From NCBI RefSeq assembly GCF_007475365.1, contig NZ_CP034442.1:186001-250000 (forward strand): DNA of 64,000 bases. The letters run 5' to 3'. Every line of letters starts with the position of its first letter. The stretch's first letter is position 1. The stretch is from Streptococcus oralis subsp. dentisani. Lineage in GTDB: Bacteria; Bacillota; Bacilli; Lactobacillales; Streptococcaceae. Shown here in pieces: positions 55,824 through 64,000 of the stretch. The position numbers were made by a program, and so were the translations under genes. The notes under the pieces were generated by a model that was not told the origin of the DNA, ran no database searches, and worked only from the letters and a program-made list of their open reading frames with translations.

Positions 55824-56668
55824 AAATTGCCTATCTAGGTCCTAAGGGATCTTTTTCGCATCACGTTGTGCAGACTGCTTTTCCTAATGAGGAATTACAA
55901 GCCTTTGCCAACATCACAGATGTTATCAAGGCCTATGAACAGGGCGTGGTGGACTATTCAGTGGTACCAGTTGAAAACTCCATTGAGGGAAGTGTACATG
56001 AAAGCTTGGATTACCTTTTTCATCAGGCTCGCATCCAAGCAGTTGCAGAAATCGTTCAGCCCATTCATCAGCAGTTGATGGCAGTTCCAGGTCAGTCAAA
56101 AATTGAGAAGATTTTTTCTCATCCTCAGGCTCTGGCTCAGGGAAAGAAATTCATAGAGGAGCATTATCCAGAAGCCCAGCTTGAAGTGACGGCAAGTACA
56201 GCTTATGCAGCTCGCTTTATTGCTGAACATCCAGACCAACCTTTTGCAGCTATTGCCCCTAGAAACTCAGCTAGTGAGTATGGACTGGAGCTAATTGCCG
56301 AGAATATTCAAGAGATGGAAGCTAATTTTACTCGTTTTTGGGTTTTGGGTGTAGATTTACCATTCATTCCTTTGAATGCCTATTCAGAAAAAATGAGTTT
56401 GGCCTTAACCTTACCGGACAATCTTCCCGGTGCTCTTTACAAGGCACTTTCGACCTTTGCTTGGAGAGGGATTGACTTAACAAAGATTGAAAGTCGCCCT
56501 TTGAAAACAGCCTTGGGAGAATATTTTTTCATTATTGATGTGGATTATAGTGCGAAAGAGCTGGTTCATTTTGCCAGACAAGAACTAGAAGCAATTGGAA
56601 TCCAGTACAAGATACTGGGAACCTACCCTATTTTCACCATAAGGGACCTAGGAAAGGAGAGCCTATGA
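55820..56668 (+). CDS. pheA: Prephenate dehydratase (PheA)
   Basis: 282 aa, monofunctional: no chorismate mutase domain. Catalytic domain with YLGPKGSFSHHVVQTAF near 4-20, VVPVENSIEGSVHESLDYL near 47-65 and NFTRFWVLG (Thr-Arg-Phe catalytic motif) near 168-176; C-terminal ACT domain with ESRPLKTALGEYFFIIDVD near 218-236 for phenylalanine feedback. Overlaps the LCP gene by 4 nt. Confidence 0.96.
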
Positions 56669-57945
56669 GCAAAGAAAGCCCTTTAAGTCATCATGAGCAG
56701 TTACGCTATGACTACCTTTTTAAGAATATTCATTACCTAAATGACAGAGAAAAGAGAGAATTTGACTATTTAAAAAGAAAAATGGACGGTGGATTTCCCT
56801 CTAATGAAGTTGAAAGGGAAAAAAATCTAGGGAAGGACATTGGGATTCCACAGTATTCCAATCAAAGTCGCTCGAATAGACATCAGAAATTTTCCTCTCT
56901 TCCAAAAGTGAAAAAGAAGAAACCAAGAAGATTTTTTAAACGAGTTCTAATTTGGCTTTTACTGTTGGTAACTTGTATGGCTGCGGGCATGATTATTATG
57001 TTCCTTCGAGGTTTCCAGTCGGCAACTACTAGCAATAAGCCAGCTGATGCAAAAGCGGCACAAGTACAGGTGTTTAATGGTCAAGATACTAAAGACGGGG
57101 TGAATATCCTAATCATGGGGACAGATGGTCGGATTGGTCAAAATAGTGCAGAAACTCGCACAGACACGATTATGGTGTTGAATGTTAGTGGTTCGGATAA
57201 GAAAATCAAGCTAGTCAGCTTCATGCGTGACAACCTAGTCTATATTGATGGCTACAGTCAGATTGTGAATGGCAAGAAACAAACGGATAATAAACTCAAC
57301 GTGGCCTATGAACTTGGGGAGCAGGAGGGGCAAAAAGGAGCAGAAATGGTTCGCAAGGTTCTAAAAGACAACTTTGATTTGGACATTAAGTACTATGCTC
57401 TAGTGGATTTTCAGGCCTTCGCAACTGCTATTGATACACTATTTCCTGATGGAGTGACTATAGACGCTAAGTTTTCAACGTTAAATGGCCAGCCTCTAAC
57501 AGAAGCTACAGTTGGAGATGACCTACATGCAACAGAAACGGAATCACCAACTCAAACTATTAAAGTTGGGAAACAGCAGATGAATGGCTCGACCTTGCTC
57601 AATTACGCTCGCTTCCGTGATGATGATGAAGGAGACTATGGTCGTACCAAACGCCAGCAGCAAGTCATGTCAGCTGTTCTTGAGCAAATCAAAGATCCAA
57701 CCAAACTCTTTACAGGATCAGAAGCACTTGGAAAGGTCTTTGGAATGACCTCAACCAATCTACCTTATACCTTCCTGCTGACCAATGGTTTGTCAGTTAT
57801 CGAAGGTGCACAGAATGGTATTGAAAGATTGACAGTGCCAGAACTTGGCGATTGGGTAGATGCTTATGATGTCTACGGAGGACAAGGTCTACTTGTCGAC
57901 CAAAACAAATATCGGACTAAACTCGCCCAAATGGGAATGAGATAA
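56665..57945 (+). CDS. psr: LytR-Cps2A-Psr (LCP) family glycopolymer ligase
   Basis: 426 aa. A long basic cytoplasmic N-terminus (about 85 residues, including VKKKKPRRFFKRV) precedes one transmembrane helix (WLLLLVTCMAAGMIIMF). The extracellular LCP domain contains the usual Arg and Asp residues: ETRTDTIMVLNV near 165-176, VSFMRDNLVYI near 186-196 and LLNYARFRDDDEGDYGRTKRQ near 312-332. LCP enzymes attach wall teichoic acid, capsule or other glycopolymers to peptidoglycan. Its position directly upstream of the LicD cluster is suggestive: it may anchor the polymer that cluster makes. Confidence 0.92.
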   Translation: MSKESPLSHHEQLRYDYLFKNIHYLNDREKREFDYLKRKMDGGFPSNEVEREKNLGKDIGIPQYSNQSRSNRHQKFSSLPKVKKKKPRRFFKRVLIWLLLLVTCMAAGMIIMFLRGFQSATTSNKPADAKAAQVQVFNGQDTKDGVNILIMGTDGRIGQNSAETRTDTIMVLNVSGSDKKIKLVSFMRDNLVYIDGYSQIVNGKKQTDNKLNVAYELGEQEGQKGAEMVRKVLKDNFDLDIKYYALVDFQAFATAIDTLFPDGVTIDAKFSTLNGQPLTEATVGDDLHATETESPTQTIKVGKQQMNGSTLLNYARFRDDDEGDYGRTKRQQQVMSAVLEQIKDPTKLFTGSEALGKVFGMTSTNLPYTFLLTNGLSVIEGAQNGIERLTVPELGDWVDAYDVYGGQGLLVDQNKYRTKLAQMGMR

Positions 57946-57959
57946 GAGGTAGATAAATG

Positions 57960-58012
57960 AAAATCAAAGCTTCATTCACTGGTGAAAAGAGTGGATTGAG
58001 CTTTGATTTTTT
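57960..58012 (+). terminator. Terminator after the LCP gene
   Basis: AAAATCAAAGC / GCTTTGATTTT stem with a structured 29-nt internal part, followed by TT. The A-rich left side could also let it work in reverse. Confidence 0.8.
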
Positions 58013-58044: not shown

Positions 58045-58053
58045 TGGTATAAT
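58045..58053 (+). promoter_or_regulatory. Promoter of the LicD cluster
   Basis: Extended -10 TG-G-TATAAT, 39 nt before the first licD start; -35 not evident. No other promoter or terminator was seen between the five genes that follow. Confidence 0.7.
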
Positions 58054-58092: not shown

Positions 58093-58929
58093 ATGAGTGA
58101 TTTGAAAGCGATTCAGGCTCGTAGTCTGGAAATGGCTGAATATTTTGTCGCATTTTGTAAAGAACATGATTTGTTGTGCTATCTCTGTGGAGGGGGTGCA
58201 ATTGGCGCCCTTCGTAATAAGGGTTTCATTCCTTGGGATGATGACTTAGACTTTTTCATGCCACGAAAGGACTATGAAAAATTAGCAGAACTGTGGCCAC
58301 GTTATGCAGATGAGCGTTATTTCTTGTCAAAGAGTAACAAAGATTTTGTAGACCGTAACCTTTTTATTACTATTCGTGATAAAGAAACAACTTGTATCAA
58401 GCCTTATCAGCAGGATTTGGATTTGCCACATGGTTTAGCCTTGGATGTTTTACCTTTGGACTATTATCCTAAAAATCCAGCTGAGCGTAAGAAACAGGTT
58501 CGCTGGGCCTTGATTTATTCCCTTTTTTGCGCCCAAACTATCCCAGAAAAGCATGGTGCAGTCATGAAATGGGGAAGTCGTATCTTACTCGGTTTGACTC
58601 CCAAATCTCTACGCTATCGCATTTGGAAAAAAGCTGAGAAAGAAATGACCAAGTACAATCTAGCTGAGAGCGATGGAATCACGGAATTATGCTCAGGTCC
58701 TGGCTATATGCGAAACAAGTACCCAATCGCATCCTTTGAAGATAATCTCTTCTTGCCATTTGAAGGAACAGAGATGCCCATTCCAGTCGGTTATGATGCC
58801 TATCTCAGAACTGCTTTTGGGGACTATATGACACCACCACCAGCAGACAAGCAAGTACCGCATCATGATGCCATTATAGCAGACATGAACAAGAGCTACA
58901 CAGAGTACAAGGGAGAATACGGAGCATGA
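58093..58929 (+). CDS. LicD family phosphotransferase (first)
   Basis: 278 aa soluble protein, ATG after AGAGGAGAG. LicD signature with nucleotidyltransferase-like Asp residues: GGGAIGALRNKGFIPWDDDLDFFMPRKDYEKL around 33-64, HGLALDVLPLDYYP near 114-127 and the C-terminal YMTPPPADKQVPHHD near 251-265. LicD proteins transfer phosphocholine or other phospho-alditol groups from a CDP-activated donor onto glycans; the donor is not readable. The usual FG-T-LLGAVRH is here CGGGAIGALRN, a small departure. Overlaps the glycosyltransferase gene by 4 nt. Confidence 0.9.
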   Translation: MSDLKAIQARSLEMAEYFVAFCKEHDLLCYLCGGGAIGALRNKGFIPWDDDLDFFMPRKDYEKLAELWPRYADERYFLSKSNKDFVDRNLFITIRDKETTCIKPYQQDLDLPHGLALDVLPLDYYPKNPAERKKQVRWALIYSLFCAQTIPEKHGAVMKWGSRILLGLTPKSLRYRIWKKAEKEMTKYNLAESDGITELCSGPGYMRNKYPIASFEDNLFLPFEGTEMPIPVGYDAYLRTAFGDYMTPPPADKQVPHHDAIIADMNKSYTEYKGEYGA

Positions 58930-59894
58930 TGGGAGAAAAAATTAGCGTCATTGTTCCAGTCTATAATGTAGAAGCCTATCTGGAGCGATGTGTGGAGTCA
59001 ATTCTTCATCAAACTTATACCAATTTTGAACTAATTCTGATCAATGATGGCTCAACTGATTCCAGCGGACAGATCTGTGATCACTTAGCCTCTCAGCATG
59101 AGAATATCAAGATCTATCATCTTGAAAATGCTGGAGTTTCAAATGCGAGAAATACGGGAATCAAGCTGGCGACTGGTGCTTGGATCACCTTTATTGATAG
59201 CGATGATTTCGTTACCCAGGATTACCTAGCTACTTTAGCAAGTGCAGTTGAAGGGGTGAATGTAGGCTTTGTTATTGCTCCTCTGCACCATATTAAAAAC
59301 GGCATTTTGACAGACTTACCTCCTCATTCTGGAAAAAAAGAAATCTGGTCAACAGAAGAAACCATGAAAGAATTATTGATGACCACTAGAACGTCATTTT
59401 TTCCAGTTGCTAAACTGTTTAAGAGAGACCTGCTTGCGGATGAAAAGTTTAATACAAATTATCATCTAGCTGAAGATGCCTTATTTCTAACTGAATTGCT
59501 ACTAAAGACAAGATGTAGTTGTGTGTTTATTGACAAACCAATTTATTATTATGATCATCGTGAGGGAAGTGCGACAACATCTGTTAATCAGCATGTATTT
59601 GACACAATAGAAGTTTATAAGCAAATAATCGCTCAAGTTTCACAAGCCTTTCCTAATTTAAAATACGAATTAAAAAATAGAGAATGTTGGTCGTACATCA
59701 CAGTTTACGATAAAATTATCTTTACTTCATCTGAACAGTATCAAAAGGAGAAAGCTGAGTTGAGGACTTGGATTGTTCAGCATCGACGCGAAATATGGAA
59801 GGATGCTTATTTCACTACTTTTCGCAAGGTAGCGATCCTTTCACTTGTCATTTCTCCATGGCTATATAAGAAAGTTGTTGGATTAAAAAACTAA
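58926..59894 (+). CDS. GT2 family glycosyltransferase
   Basis: 322 aa with the GT-A fold: SVIVPVYNVEAYLERCVESI near 7-26, LILINDGSTDSSGQICD near 37-53 (first Asp), NAGVSNARNTGI near 69-80 and the DxD-like FIDSDDFVTQDYL near 92-104. Cytoplasmic; a short hydrophobic C-terminal helix (AILSLVISPWLY) may touch the membrane. The transferred sugar is unknown. The start is one of two tandem ATGs overlapping the licD stop. Confidence 0.9.
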   Translation: MMGEKISVIVPVYNVEAYLERCVESILHQTYTNFELILINDGSTDSSGQICDHLASQHENIKIYHLENAGVSNARNTGIKLATGAWITFIDSDDFVTQDYLATLASAVEGVNVGFVIAPLHHIKNGILTDLPPHSGKKEIWSTEETMKELLMTTRTSFFPVAKLFKRDLLADEKFNTNYHLAEDALFLTELLLKTRCSCVFIDKPIYYYDHREGSATTSVNQHVFDTIEVYKQIIAQVSQAFPNLKYELKNRECWSYITVYDKIIFTSSEQYQKEKAELRTWIVQHRREIWKDAYFTTFRKVAILSLVISPWLYKKVVGLKN

Positions 59895-59915
59895 TATCAT
59901 GAGAAGGAGTTGAAA

Positions 59916-62075
59916 ATGAATTTTTCAAAAATGGATGAATACTTTGAAAAATCAAAATTATGGATTGCATATCTGTTTGTTTTTATTTCGATTTTAAGTA
60001 TGAGTTCACTAGTTTATAAGGTAGCAAATCCAATCTATAAGGGATTGTCAGCGATTGTTGTACTTTATATTTGCTACACATTGTTGTTTAAGTGGAAACA
60101 GATTACAGTAGATCGTAAATTTCTATCCTTATTTGGACTCCTATCTGGAAGCCATCTACTGTCGGCAGTATTCAATCGCTCTGGACATTTGATTGGAAAT
60201 GTGATTGAAATCCTTTTCATGGTAACCTATGTTTTATTATTTGCCATGTTACAATCGGGTCAGCTTAAAAGATTATTTGACTGGATTGCCTATACGGTTC
60301 AAATTGTATCTTTTTCTTCAGCAATTTTTGCGTTTGGTTTATTGGTAAGTAGAGTCCTTATCCTATTTAAGATTGGCGAACAATCTTATTACTATGGTGT
60401 CATGAATGGACGTCTGTGGGGGATTGTTAATCCTAATGCTAGTGCGATATTTTCATACATTAGCATTATTTTGGCTATATATTTGATCCATAAAGGAAGT
60501 AAATATTCTGTTTATCTAAAACTGAACAATGTGATTCAGTTAGTTTACTTCGCTACGATGCAAAGTCGAGGAGCCTTACTTTCTTTACTTCTCATGATTG
60601 GACTCTATAGTTTCTTTGCTACTAGAGGAAGTATCGTTAAACGATTCCTCACTTTTATAGTTGCTGGTTTGCTTATTACTGCAACCAACATTGGATTAAG
60701 CTATGCAACCTCAATCTATATCGCATCTGAAACTGCGACTGTTTTTGACTTAAACAAAGGACAATCCTACGCTGAGACAGATTCGTCTATCACTAAGAAG
60801 AACGGTGAACTCCATCTAATTGAAACAACACCAAGTGGTAGAACCTATATCTGGAAAAATGCCATCAAGATGGGAAGTGCCAAACCAATTTTTGGTTATG
60901 GTGTACGGAATGTTCCAGATTACTATACAGAATATTTCAGTAAATTTGAGATTCAAAACTCCCTTATTGGTGGGAATTTCCATAATATTTTTGTAACCAT
61001 ATTTGTCAGTTCGGGAGTTCTAGGCTTGGTATCCTTCCTTCTTATATTGGGTTATGTCATCAAGCGCTTTTTAACGTATTTGATTGTTTCCAAGAAAAAT
61101 ACTGATAAATTGATTATGATCCTTTTCTTTGGTATCTTGTTTGGTCAATTATTTGAGAGTCAGATTATGTATTCAACCAACTTTATCAATATCATCTTTT
61201 GGTTGGCAATCGGTTATGGACTAGTGGTTTGCAAACGGGATGAAGGAGTTCGGTATCAAGAAGTAACAGATGTCAGTGAAATTCAACAGATGGAACTTGG
61301 AATCATGGGGTACATTCATGAAGTTTGTCAGAAAATTGGTGCCAAGTATTTCTTAGCATATGGAAGTCTGATTGGTGCGGTTCGCCATAAAGGTTTTATC
61401 CCTTGGGACGATGATATGGATATTTGCATGCTAAGAGAAGACTATGAGAAACTACAAGATTACCTCATCGCTCATCCTGATGAACGTTATGAAGTCATGT
61501 CTTATAAAAATAATCTCAACTATGTCTATCCTTTTATGAAAGTGCAGGATAACCATACCTACTTGCTCGAAGAAGATGTACGAATTGATTCAAATATGGG
61601 AATCTATGTGGATATTTTCCCTGTAGATGGTTATGAAGATGATGCGGACTTTAAAAACAAGATGACGAAACTCATAAAGAAACGTCAATTGAGTTGTTAC
61701 ACTTTTAAAGGAATTACAAATACAAAAAGTCTACTGAATTCTTTGATTCGTTATATTTCTGTTGTCATTTTCTATTTCACAAATACGAATAAGTATGTTG
61801 AGCAAATTGATGAGCTTGCTAAATCTAGAGCAGTTGCTGACTACGAGCAAGTTGATTATTTAATTTACAAGGATATGAATAAGCCAGTTTGGAAACGTGA
61901 GTGGTTAGAACAAGTGATTGTGGGAACATTTGAAGGTAAGGAATTTATGATTCCAAAACACTACCATGAAATTTTGACCTCTGACTACGGAGATTACATG
62001 CAATTGCCCCCTCTTGAACAAAGAGTATCTCACCATGATTTTAAACTGTGGAAAATCACTAAAAGTTCTAAGTAA
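59916..62075 (+). CDS. O-antigen ligase/polymerase-like membrane protein fused to a LicD domain
   Basis: 719 aa from ATG 59916, 6 nt after AAGGAG; a TTG six nt earlier abuts the ribosome binding site. Residues 1-438 carry about 11-12 transmembrane segments and a large outside loop with TPSGRTYIWKNAIKMGSAKP, FGYGVRNV and FHNIFVTIFVSSGVLGL (His356), as in Wzy/WaaL proteins. Residues about 450-719 are a complete LicD domain: AYGSLIGAVRHKGFIPWDDDMD and ending GDYMQLPPLEQRVSHHD. There is no stop or frameshift between them. It would couple glycan polymerisation or ligation to phosphotransfer; substrate unknown. Confidence 0.85.
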   Translation: MNFSKMDEYFEKSKLWIAYLFVFISILSMSSLVYKVANPIYKGLSAIVVLYICYTLLFKWKQITVDRKFLSLFGLLSGSHLLSAVFNRSGHLIGNVIEILFMVTYVLLFAMLQSGQLKRLFDWIAYTVQIVSFSSAIFAFGLLVSRVLILFKIGEQSYYYGVMNGRLWGIVNPNASAIFSYISIILAIYLIHKGSKYSVYLKLNNVIQLVYFATMQSRGALLSLLLMIGLYSFFATRGSIVKRFLTFIVAGLLITATNIGLSYATSIYIASETATVFDLNKGQSYAETDSSITKKNGELHLIETTPSGRTYIWKNAIKMGSAKPIFGYGVRNVPDYYTEYFSKFEIQNSLIGGNFHNIFVTIFVSSGVLGLVSFLLILGYVIKRFLTYLIVSKKNTDKLIMILFFGILFGQLFESQIMYSTNFINIIFWLAIGYGLVVCKRDEGVRYQEVTDVSEIQQMELGIMGYIHEVCQKIGAKYFLAYGSLIGAVRHKGFIPWDDDMDICMLREDYEKLQDYLIAHPDERYEVMSYKNNLNYVYPFMKVQDNHTYLLEEDVRIDSNMGIYVDIFPVDGYEDDADFKNKMTKLIKKRQLSCYTFKGITNTKSLLNSLIRYISVVIFYFTNTNKYVEQIDELAKSRAVADYEQVDYLIYKDMNKPVWKREWLEQVIVGTFEGKEFMIPKHYHEILTSDYGDYMQLPPLEQRVSHHDFKLWKITKSSK

Positions 62076-62132
62076 GCAAATCGCAGTTAAAAATTGTTTA
62101 AAAAATTAGTCAAAATTAGGAGAATAGAAAGT

Positions 62133-62945
62133 ATGTCTGAGAGAGTTTTAAGTCTTGAAGAAATAAAACAAGTGGAGTTGGATATTTTAAAGTATCTACA
62201 TGAACTATGTGAACAGCATCAGATTAAATATTTTATTGATTTTGGAACCTTACTAGGAGCTGTCCGCCATAAAGGATTTATCCCTTGGGATGATGATACG
62301 GATATTTCCTTAGCGCGAGATGAATTTGAAAAGCTTTATAAGGTTTTAAAAAATGAGAATCATCCCTACTACAAATTGATTTCATTTAGAGAAACAAAAG
62401 GCTATCCGTACAGTTATATGCGTGTCCATGATATTAGAACACGTAGAGATGCCAATCTTCTGGACCCGACAGTCGTATTGGGAACTTGCGTTGACATTTT
62501 TCCATACGATGGTGTCGTGACGGAGGAAAGTGATTGTAAGAAAATGAAGCTCTATAAACATTTTGTCCGCCTTTCTTCTTTGAATTTCAAAGGAATTAAA
62601 TCAGAAAATGGGGGGATAAAAAATCTGCCTCGTTATATTGGATCAGCTATTTTTCGCCTAAGTTCTCCACAAACTTGGAATCAAAAATTAGAGAATCTTG
62701 CTTTGAAATATAGTGTAAATCAAGCTACAGATCTTACCTGTACGATATTTGATCCAAGTTGTCCAGAGGGAATCAAAAAAGAATGGCTCTATGATCTGAT
62801 TGATATGCCATACGAAAATATCGTAGTGAAGGCTCCGAGAAAATACCATGAAATTCTTGCCTACGAATTTGGAGCAGACTATATGACTCCACCACCTGTT
62901 GAACAGCAGGTTCCAGGAACTGATAAGAATTATTGGATTGATTAG
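62133..62945 (+). CDS. LicD family phosphotransferase (second stand-alone copy)
   Basis: 270 aa from ATG 62133, with AGGAGAATAGAAAG upstream; 13 earlier in-frame codons are discounted. Signature IKYFIDFGTLLGAVRHKGFI then PWDDDTDISLARDEFEKL around 28-65, VDIFPYDGV near 130-138 and C-terminal YMTPPPVEQQVPGTD. It is closer in sequence style to the LicD domain of the preceding fusion protein than to the first LicD. Donor and acceptor unknown. Confidence 0.9.
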   Translation: MSERVLSLEEIKQVELDILKYLHELCEQHQIKYFIDFGTLLGAVRHKGFIPWDDDTDISLARDEFEKLYKVLKNENHPYYKLISFRETKGYPYSYMRVHDIRTRRDANLLDPTVVLGTCVDIFPYDGVVTEESDCKKMKLYKHFVRLSSLNFKGIKSENGGIKNLPRYIGSAIFRLSSPQTWNQKLENLALKYSVNQATDLTCTIFDPSCPEGIKKEWLYDLIDMPYENIVVKAPRKYHEILAYEFGADYMTPPPVEQQVPGTDKNYWID

Positions 62946-62981
62946 TAAGAGATTGTTTTCATCGAGAAAGGAGTGTTCAAG

Positions 62982-64000
62982 ATGACGAATAAAAAATTAG
63001 TTAAATCAGTCAGTTATGGTTTATTTGCTCTCCTTTTTGTGTTGATTGCTTTATCACAACAAGTTAATGCAGACACCATTACTGCTGGTTCAGGCAATCG
63101 TATCCATTTCATAAATACTAAAGCAAAATCTGGGAGTGATGCTATCCTTCTGGAAAGCAATGGTCATTATGCCTTGATTGATATGGGGGAAGATTATGAC
63201 TTTCCTGATGGGAGTGATCCACGCTATCCAAGTCGTTGGGGAATTTCCATGAGAAATTATCAAGTCTTGGAAGACCGTTTGATTCGCCATCTTGATCAGA
63301 TTGGTGTTAAAAAATTAGATTTTATTATAGGAACTCATGTCCATAGTGACCATATTGGTGGAGCGGACGAAATACTCAATCGATATCAAGTCGGTAAGTT
63401 TTATTTGAAAAAATATTCAGATGATCGGATCACAGCAAACTGGGGACTCTGGGATAATCTTTTTAATTACGATAATGCTTTGAGAGCCGCACAAAAACGA
63501 GGGGTTACTCTTATTCAGAATATTACAGACGAGGATAGTCACTTTAAATTAGGTGATATGGATATCCAACTCTATAATTATAAAAATGAATATGATGCTG
63601 ATGGTAACCTGAAAAAAGTTCGAGATGATAACTCAAACTCAATCGTTTCAGTGGTGACTGTGGCAGGAAAGAGAATCTACCTTGGTGGAGATTTGGATAA
63701 TGCCGAAGGAGCGGAAGATAAGTTAGGTCCAGTTATCGGCAAGGTTGATATGATGAAATGGAATCATCATTATGATGCGACAATTTCAAATACGATTAAT
63801 TTTCTTGAAAACCTATCTCCAAAGATGATTATTCAGACAACTGGTGGTGATATTAATGTTGCTTCAACCAGAGAATATCTCCAAAAGAAAAATATTCAAG
63901 TTCTCAGAGCTTCTAGTCAAACTCAAGACGCTACCGTTTTCGATATTAGTGATAGCGGATTTGCTAATGTTTCTAATCTCTTCCCGGACATCCCTGTAGT
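62982..64000 (+). CDS. Phosphorylcholine esterase-like metallo-beta-lactamase-fold protein (Pce-like), partial
   Basis: First 339 codons, running off the window. ATG after AAAGGAGTG. Signal peptide residues 5-30 ending VNA, predicting secretion. The mature part has the metal-site motif THVHSDHIGGAD (His119, His121, Asp123, His124) and later LGGDLDNAEGAED and WNHHYDA with further ligands. It resembles the catalytic module of pneumococcal Pce/CbpE, which removes phosphorylcholine from teichoic acid. Pce ends in choline-binding repeats; whether this protein does cannot be seen. Last visible gene of the LicD cluster. Confidence 0.88.
   Translation, partial: MTNKKLVKSVSYGLFALLFVLIALSQQVNADTITAGSGNRIHFINTKAKSGSDAILLESNGHYALIDMGEDYDFPDGSDPRYPSRWGISMRNYQVLEDRLIRHLDQIGVKKLDFIIGTHVHSDHIGGADEILNRYQVGKFYLKKYSDDRITANWGLWDNLFNYDNALRAAQKRGVTLIQNITDEDSHFKLGDMDIQLYNYKNEYDADGNLKKVRDDNSNSIVSVVTVAGKRIYLGGDLDNAEGAEDKLGPVIGKVDMMKWNHHYDATISNTINFLENLSPKMIIQTTGGDINVASTREYLQKKNIQVLRASSQTQDATVFDISDSGFANVSNLFPDIPV

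Follow-up and report, generated by a model that had tools for sequence, protein, structure and literature searches.

The five same-strand genes lying downstream of psr at the right-hand end of the window studied here (64,000 nucleotides, bases 186001-250000 of a genome that is a single contig of 1.93 Mb) very probably form a cassette for the assembly, decoration and trimming of a choline-containing type IV teichoic acid, as variant B of the lic3/lic4 locus. They encode a LicD protein, a GT2 glycosyltransferase (GT), a fusion of a Wzy_C domain with a LicD domain, a further LicD protein and a Pce-like hydrolase. Type IV teichoic acid is the most likely product because the locus corresponds in position, and in part by orthology, to the pneumococcal lic3 and the Streptococcus oralis lic4 loci. 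The cluster is therefore described here as the S. oralis-type version of a known gene set, not as a separate new system, and it is one of at least three interchangeable cassette versions occupying the same site in related species. In the parts of the papers drawn on here, a lic4-type locus has already been described in S. oralis Uo5 (PMC4649388), as has a second variant (PMC4863584). New here, as read from the genomes compared, are the three cassette types at one site and the counts for replacement of LicD1/LicD2 and TarP/TarQ.

The initial annotation had proposed that the cell builds a wall polymer, decorates it with phospho-groups, anchors it through an LCP enzyme and trims it back with an esterase; judged from the gene content, this outline appears right. 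It had also called the product unknown, which has to be corrected for the polymer class, as distinct from the exact repeat structure of the variant. In a quick tree of the four flanking aro genes, the host falls among S. oralis-labelled loci, and the aro identity between the host and the loci of its S. oralis clade is 90-92%. Organism names of loci are given as deposited.

Gene content and relation to the choline pathway

Pfam matches for the named parts bore out the description of five genes running in one direction after an LCP gene:

58093..58929, + strand: licD3 orthologue, predicted ribitol-phosphate transferase (PF04991, 184 bits)
58926..59894, + strand: GT2 glycosyltransferase, predicted to add a sugar after ribitol-phosphate (PF00535, 130 bits)
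59910..62075, + strand: LicD4, a membrane half of WaaL/Wzy fold (polymerase candidate) plus a LicD domain, 721 codons (likely start 59916)
62094..62945, + strand: LicD5 (name coined here), a separate LicD predicted to be the second phosphocholine transferase (PF04991, 118 bits; likely start 62133)
62973..64000, + strand: Pce-like phosphorylcholine esterase, cut at the window edge (likely start 62982; the full gene ends at G000:C1:251507)

The likely starts 59916, 62133 and 62982 correspond to ribosome-binding sites read by eye. The GT gene begins 4 nucleotides inside licD3, and with these likely starts the later gaps are 21, 57 and 36 nucleotides. All three LicD proteins carry the acidic IPWDDDxD motif and exceed the PF04991 cut-off. 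The first was placed in the LicD3 clade with support of 100/100, and it shares 95% identity with its counterpart at this site in L035, a locus deposited as S. pneumoniae. As in the pneumococcal locus, the licD3 site has psr before it and mecA-hom after it; in the window genome mecA, hom and thrB, named by eye from the sequence, come after a TacF-like gene.

In a search of the whole genome, the three LicD domains found were all within the cluster. The lic1 genes lie elsewhere, as tarI-tarJ-licA-licB-licC in this order on the minus strand (L090, 5765-9954); TarI scored above its NCBIfam cut-off (385 vs 166), and the other four were named from gene order and weaker family matches. Inspection of the lic1 locus revealed no licD1, licD2 or tacF beside it. 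Similarly, TarP and TarQ queries gave no match in this genome, and the same queries matched 17/17 type-A genomes (defined below). Because all the LicD domains found sit in the cluster, and lic1 only supplies precursors, the cluster is tied to the choline pathway, and on this point the initial annotation, which had set it apart from the classical lic choline locus, has to be corrected.

A second surface glycan with phospho-decoration, other than the choline teichoic acid, could be proposed from the GT, the polymerase-like protein, the LicD proteins and the LCP neighbour, since such genes are also typical of capsule or secondary polymer loci. However, no other LicD and no TarP or TarQ was found in the genome for making an ordinary teichoic acid, and the positive controls of the TarP and TarQ searches worked. 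Moreover, licD3 is nearly identical to the pneumococcal gene and stands at the same site, and the LicD1/LicD2 pair and TarP/TarQ were found in 0/33 of the genomes with type-B or type-C cassettes. A separate glycan system is thus rejected as extremely improbable.

The presence of licA was consistent among related type-B genomes. LicA identity was at least 78% in 16/16 type-B genomes tested (from a search of 22 hand-chosen loci), with LicA of L041 being in two pieces. In-frame stops reported in licA lie before the true start in L026, the single case read through, and licA was intact, with 289 codons, in both genomes inspected.

Three cassette types and replacement of the pneumococcal genes

Retrieval based on LicD3 yielded 80 named loci, kept from 182 related stretches, and the same gene order, which the initial annotation had suggested looking for across mitis-group genomes, was found. 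In the streptococcal loci, three cassette types follow licD3. Type A has the order GT-GT-TarP-TarQ. Type B, that of the studied cluster, has a GT, LicD4 and LicD5, often with Pce and TacF. Type C has another GT, another LicD4 and a short LicD-like protein, also often with Pce and TacF. The counts were 27 for A, 23 for B and 9 for C among the 59 loci with usable flanks. The psr flank is common to mitis-group loci of all three types.

For comparison with the host lineages, 21/80 loci without enough aro genes were excluded, giving a tree of 60 rows including the window. Cassette types required 23 changes on this tree against a shuffled mean of 25.4, with values as low in 33/200 shuffles, although the tree is a quick one and the aro genes may recombine themselves. 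A tracking of host lineage by cassette type was therefore rejected, and the cassette appears to move largely independently of the host. When the types were taken singly, A and B showed slight clustering (values as low in 22/500 and 39/500 shuffles, respectively) and C showed none. All three types occur in the 12-row clade around S. oralis, with nine B, two C and one A.

Replacement was counted in 50 genomes (23 B, 10 C and 17 A) of 60 loci first chosen, the 10 omitted being all of type A. Among the matches listed, the pair of LicD1/LicD2-class matches above 200 bits occurred in 17/17 type-A genomes and in 0/33 type-B or type-C genomes; this threshold was chosen after viewing the list and lies within the gap between 203 and 186 bits. 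In genome-wide searches, TarP and TarQ were absent from 33/33 type-B or type-C genomes, with the 17 type-A genomes serving as positive control only, as type A is defined by TarP plus TarQ at the locus. The corresponding counts at the loci themselves (27/27 for A against 0/32 for B and C) are true by definition and were not used as evidence. On the other hand, the genome-wide absence of TarP/TarQ and the split in LicD1/LicD2 are usable because types were assigned from locus genes only. Since the LicD1/LicD2 pair, TarP and TarQ are all absent, type B would replace the pneumococcal functions of both decoration and polymerisation.

At least three LicD domains were present in each of the 50 genomes. 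Among the matches listed, exactly three were found in 25 genomes (B 9/23, C 3/10 and A 13/17). The simplest reading of these sequence counts is that the minimum set consists of one ribitol-phosphate transferase and two phosphocholine transferases.

The short fourth gene of type C (L046:13962-14672) has an acidic DLDMD motif conserved, and FKRP is the nearest solved fold to the model of its product (predicted local distance difference test, pLDDT, 82); it may therefore encode an active LicD-type transferase and not a remnant. Outside the streptococci, licD3-GT-TarP-TarQ was found in L069, L070, L082 and L083 (Granulicatella, Carnobacterium, a Tissierellia bacterium and Parvimonas), so that this set is wider than the mitis group; the GT, TarP and TarQ of these loci are 39-60% identical to the pneumococcal ones. 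In a Blautia locus (L073:6707-13515), the LicD3 is 75% identical to streptococcal LicD3; encoded nearby are a 526-aa protein resembling the LicD4 membrane half, another LicD and a TacF-like protein (48%), a set that suggests transfer between distant Firmicutes.

LicD4 and LicD5

LicD4 matches Wzy_C (PF04932, 72.6 bits, over the cut-off) in its membrane half and LicD (155 bits) in its C-terminal half, and the nearest folds of the two halves are WaaL and FKRP, respectively. LicD5 retains the GFIPWDDDxD motif. Both the C-terminal half of LicD4 and LicD5 are 31-35% identical to LicD1/LicD2 and 24-26% identical to LicD3. Orthology of the former with LicD2 and of the latter with LicD1 was rejected in an approximately unbiased (AU) test (p = 0.0004 and 0.0001, respectively), which was made on these two pairs, with the crossed pairings outside it.

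In the tree, LicD5 clustered with the fused LicD domain of type C (support 98/92, and 95/89 once LicD3 and the short LicD-like proteins were removed), which first suggested that polymerase and LicD had been fused independently in types B and C. Independent fusion is not claimed here because the AU test did not reject the alternatives, i.e., the fused domains as one clade (p = 0.26) or LicD5 with the C-terminal half of LicD4 (p = 0.08), and because long branches were flagged. The membrane halves of types B and C are 21% identical over 251 residues, compatible with a single fusion or independent ones.

Within a type IV cassette, the C-terminal half of LicD4 or LicD5 could transfer a second ribitol-phosphate, glycerol-phosphate or phosphoethanolamine instead of phosphocholine. 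Relatives with the LicD fold vary in their donor, the nearest solved relative, FKRP, being a ribitol-phosphate transferase, and neither LicD is orthologous to LicD1 or LicD2 in the pairs tested. An ethanolamine-for-choline polymer was moreover reported in S. mitis SK598 (PMC8544892, in the part consulted). However, the clean replacement of the LicD1/LicD2 pair, to which both proteins are nearer than to LicD3, favors phosphocholine. The same holds for the supply of cytidine diphosphate (CDP)-choline and CDP-ribitol by lic1, genes for other donors not having been searched for, and for the two phosphocholine residues on one sugar described for Uo5 (PMC4649388, in the section cited). We therefore regard a different donor as unlikely, though with some real weight.

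The membrane half of LicD4 might also act as a ligase that transfers completed chains to an acceptor, and not as a polymerase. The Wzy_C superfamily includes both polymerases and ligases. The genome lacks TarP in the search described, and a polymerase would otherwise be missing. Furthermore, a second Wzy_C protein is available as ligase: besides LicD4, the genome has a single Wzy_C match, a 433-aa open reading frame at G000:C1:1014107 (L099), and this is a candidate for the lipoteichoic acid ligase TacL. A ligase role for LicD4 is thus improbable, and a polymerase remains the preferred assignment.

The Pce-like esterase and the TacF-like flippase

The identification of the last gene as a Pce-like hydrolase, already made in the initial annotation, is well supported. 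The protein matched the solved pneumococcal CbpE/Pce 12qj with a phmmer E value of 1.6e-113, and 1wra and 2bib as well. The catalytic match is of the metallo-beta-lactamase (MBL) fold (residues 39-341), with the HxHxDH motif kept as HVHSDH. The full protein of 844 aa consists of a hydrophobic signal-like start (by eye), the catalytic domain and choline-binding repeats, the C-terminus containing 12 Choline_bind_3 and 13 Choline_bind_1 stretches. In some relatives (L046:14743-17134, and also L011 and L023), the Pce-like gene appears as two open frames, through a genuine split or an assembly error. In the host genome, the gene is followed by the convergent gene of a 492-aa TacF-like flippase (PF01943), which is 46% identical to the TacF-like protein that S. 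oralis subsp. tigurinus AZ_3a encodes at its type-A locus.

Signals upstream of licD3

The left flank of the cassette comprises the following features:

56665..57945, + strand: psr, LCP-family glycopolymer transferase (PF03816, 144 bits)
57959..58011, + strand: strong hairpin leading into a T-run, probably the terminator of psr (-23.8 kcal/mol, z -6.0)
58045..58053, + strand: extended -10 promoter element TGGTATAAT before licD3, read directly

The hairpin-arm pattern occurred in 57/60 upstream regions compared, and TGnTATAAT in 60/60, all three cassette types included. As the element and the hairpin are kept whatever follows licD3, a single promoter shared by licD3 and the genes after it, as initially proposed, is plausible from the sequence, and co-transcription of the cassette is inferred. 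Two results speak against it. The consensus scan, in which a -35 hexamer was required, did not list the element at 58045..58053, and its promoter-like sites (26, against a shuffled mean of 26.9) showed no excess. In L008, L019 and L039, about 106-153 extra repeat-like bases lie between psr and the hairpin.

Proposed pathway and points against it

Gene content, LicD3 orthology, predicted folds, LicD1/LicD2 exclusion, TarP/TarQ absence and the presence of lic1 are read from the sequences; from these we infer every biochemical step and which LicD acts where. LicA/B/C and TarI/J, encoded elsewhere, would make CDP-choline and CDP-ribitol. LicD3 would put ribitol-phosphate on the lipid-linked disaccharide, and the single GT2 enzyme would put one sugar on the ribitol, a step for which the pneumococcus uses two GTs. 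Phosphocholine may then be added by LicD5 and by the LicD domain within LicD4, in the role of LicD1 and LicD2, after which the cassette's own TacF would flip the decorated unit. Outside the membrane, the WaaL/Wzy-like half of LicD4 may polymerise the units in place of TarP/TarQ, and LCP enzymes such as Psr would join the chain to peptidoglycan. Finally, Pce could stay bound to the polymer through its choline-binding repeats and strip off some of the phosphocholine.

Several results weigh against this proposal. More than three LicD domains were present in 25/50 genomes, so that three is a minimum and not a rule. Phosphocholine specificity is deduced from replacement because orthology of LicD4 with LicD2 and of LicD5 with LicD1, the pairs tested, was rejected. 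A literature search for the teichoic acid chemistry of a type-B strain found none. Pce and TacF were seen in 17/23 and 18/23 type-B loci, respectively, although loci end about 10 kb after licD3 and a gene missing from the locus is not necessarily missing from the genome. In addition, the control genomes L066 and L073, without a close LicA, had abundant choline-binding repeats in a comparison of eight hand-chosen loci; deducing phosphocholine from such repeats alone was therefore dropped.

A further-reaching reading is tentative and, in our opinion, rather doubtful. Type B might be a self-contained module that passes between species in one piece. In it, the polymerase (LicD4) would carry a tethered phosphocholine transferase, which works with LicD5 and the module's own TacF to make a type IV teichoic acid not yet seen. 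If so, polymerisation would be physically tied to decoration without TarP/TarQ, and a single recombination event would change both a surface antigen and the structure to which all choline-binding proteins are anchored.

Comparison with known systems

In the portions of PMC4649388 considered here, lic4 of S. oralis Uo5 comprises Sor_0760 (licD3), Sor_0761 (GT), Sor_0762 (licD4) and Sor_0763, assigned to the addition of ribitol-phosphate, GalNAc and phosphocholine, the ribitol-phosphate role being that of LicD3, and the lipoteichoic acid of Uo5 was solved. The studied cluster follows the same order: licD3, GT, a licD4 whose C-terminal part resembles LicD, and then a LicD-like gene. However, the fourth gene of Uo5 was reported to have very limited LicD similarity, and its GT 42% similarity to Spr1223 (PMC4649388). 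Because these descriptions match type C, whose fourth gene has a weak LicD match and whose GT is 41% identical to the protein at the Spr1223 position (the second GT of the pneumococcal locus), Uo5 is taken as type C, a comparison made by description only. In contrast to type C, the studied cluster has a full LicD as its fourth gene, a LicD4 only 27-31% identical to that of type C, and a GT that is 39% identical to the type-C GT and 32% to the second pneumococcal one.

It was reported that S. oralis DD16, DD17, DD20 and DD21 and S. mitis DD26 carry a second lic4 variant with lower LicD3 and TacF homology to Uo5, and a distinct teichoic acid variant was already inferred for the DD strains (PMC4863584). 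The 3/3 of these strains among our loci, DD16 (L015), DD21 (L023) and DD26 (L041), are type B. Compared with the passages of PMC4863584 drawn on, LicD5, the fusion and the replacement of TarP/TarQ are new. S. oralis-like teichoic acid pathways were also described in some S. mitis (PMC12211801, in the part cited).

According to the sections of PMC6722419 used here, S. oralis subsp. tigurinus and dentisani are without homologues of Sor_0761-0763 and apparently without phosphocholine, two tigurinus strains excepted, and S. mitis SK564 is without SP_1273, SP_1274 and SP_1364-1366. One of the two exceptions, AZ_3a (L079), is of type A in our data, in agreement with that account, and SK564 (L028) is type B. 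Judged from its sequence, the phosphocholine lack does not fit L026, the one genome labelled subsp. dentisani on which this comparison rests, which has a complete type-B cassette and an intact licA 96% identical to that of the host. In our opinion, type B could have been missed in that study because it is too divergent for an orthologue search. Two readings are thus corrected, that of an extra glycan system and, for this one genome, that of a phosphocholine lack in subsp. dentisani.

Which LicD places phosphocholine where was left open in the part of PMC4649388 cited, and the mosaic of types A, B and C offers a natural test set for this question. Like the studied cluster, the pneumococcal lic3 locus (licD3, Spr1224, Spr1223, tarP, tarQ) has the same site, kind of promoter and hairpin, with the licD3 identity given above. 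Unlike it, the cluster has one GT instead of two, a candidate polymerase of family PF04932 instead of PF14296, and lacks TarP and TarQ, which were named by position and Pfam in two loci deposited as S. pneumoniae. TarP/TarQ were proposed to polymerise teichoic acid (PMC5448163, in the part consulted). In the genome of L035, the LicD1/LicD2 pair lies on the licA contig and not at the licD3 site. The Pce-like protein shares its catalytic domain and choline-binding tail with pneumococcal Pce/CbpE; the pneumococcal gene is presumably encoded elsewhere than in the teichoic acid cassette, whereas Pce lies inside the cassette here and in those type-B loci that carry it (17/23).

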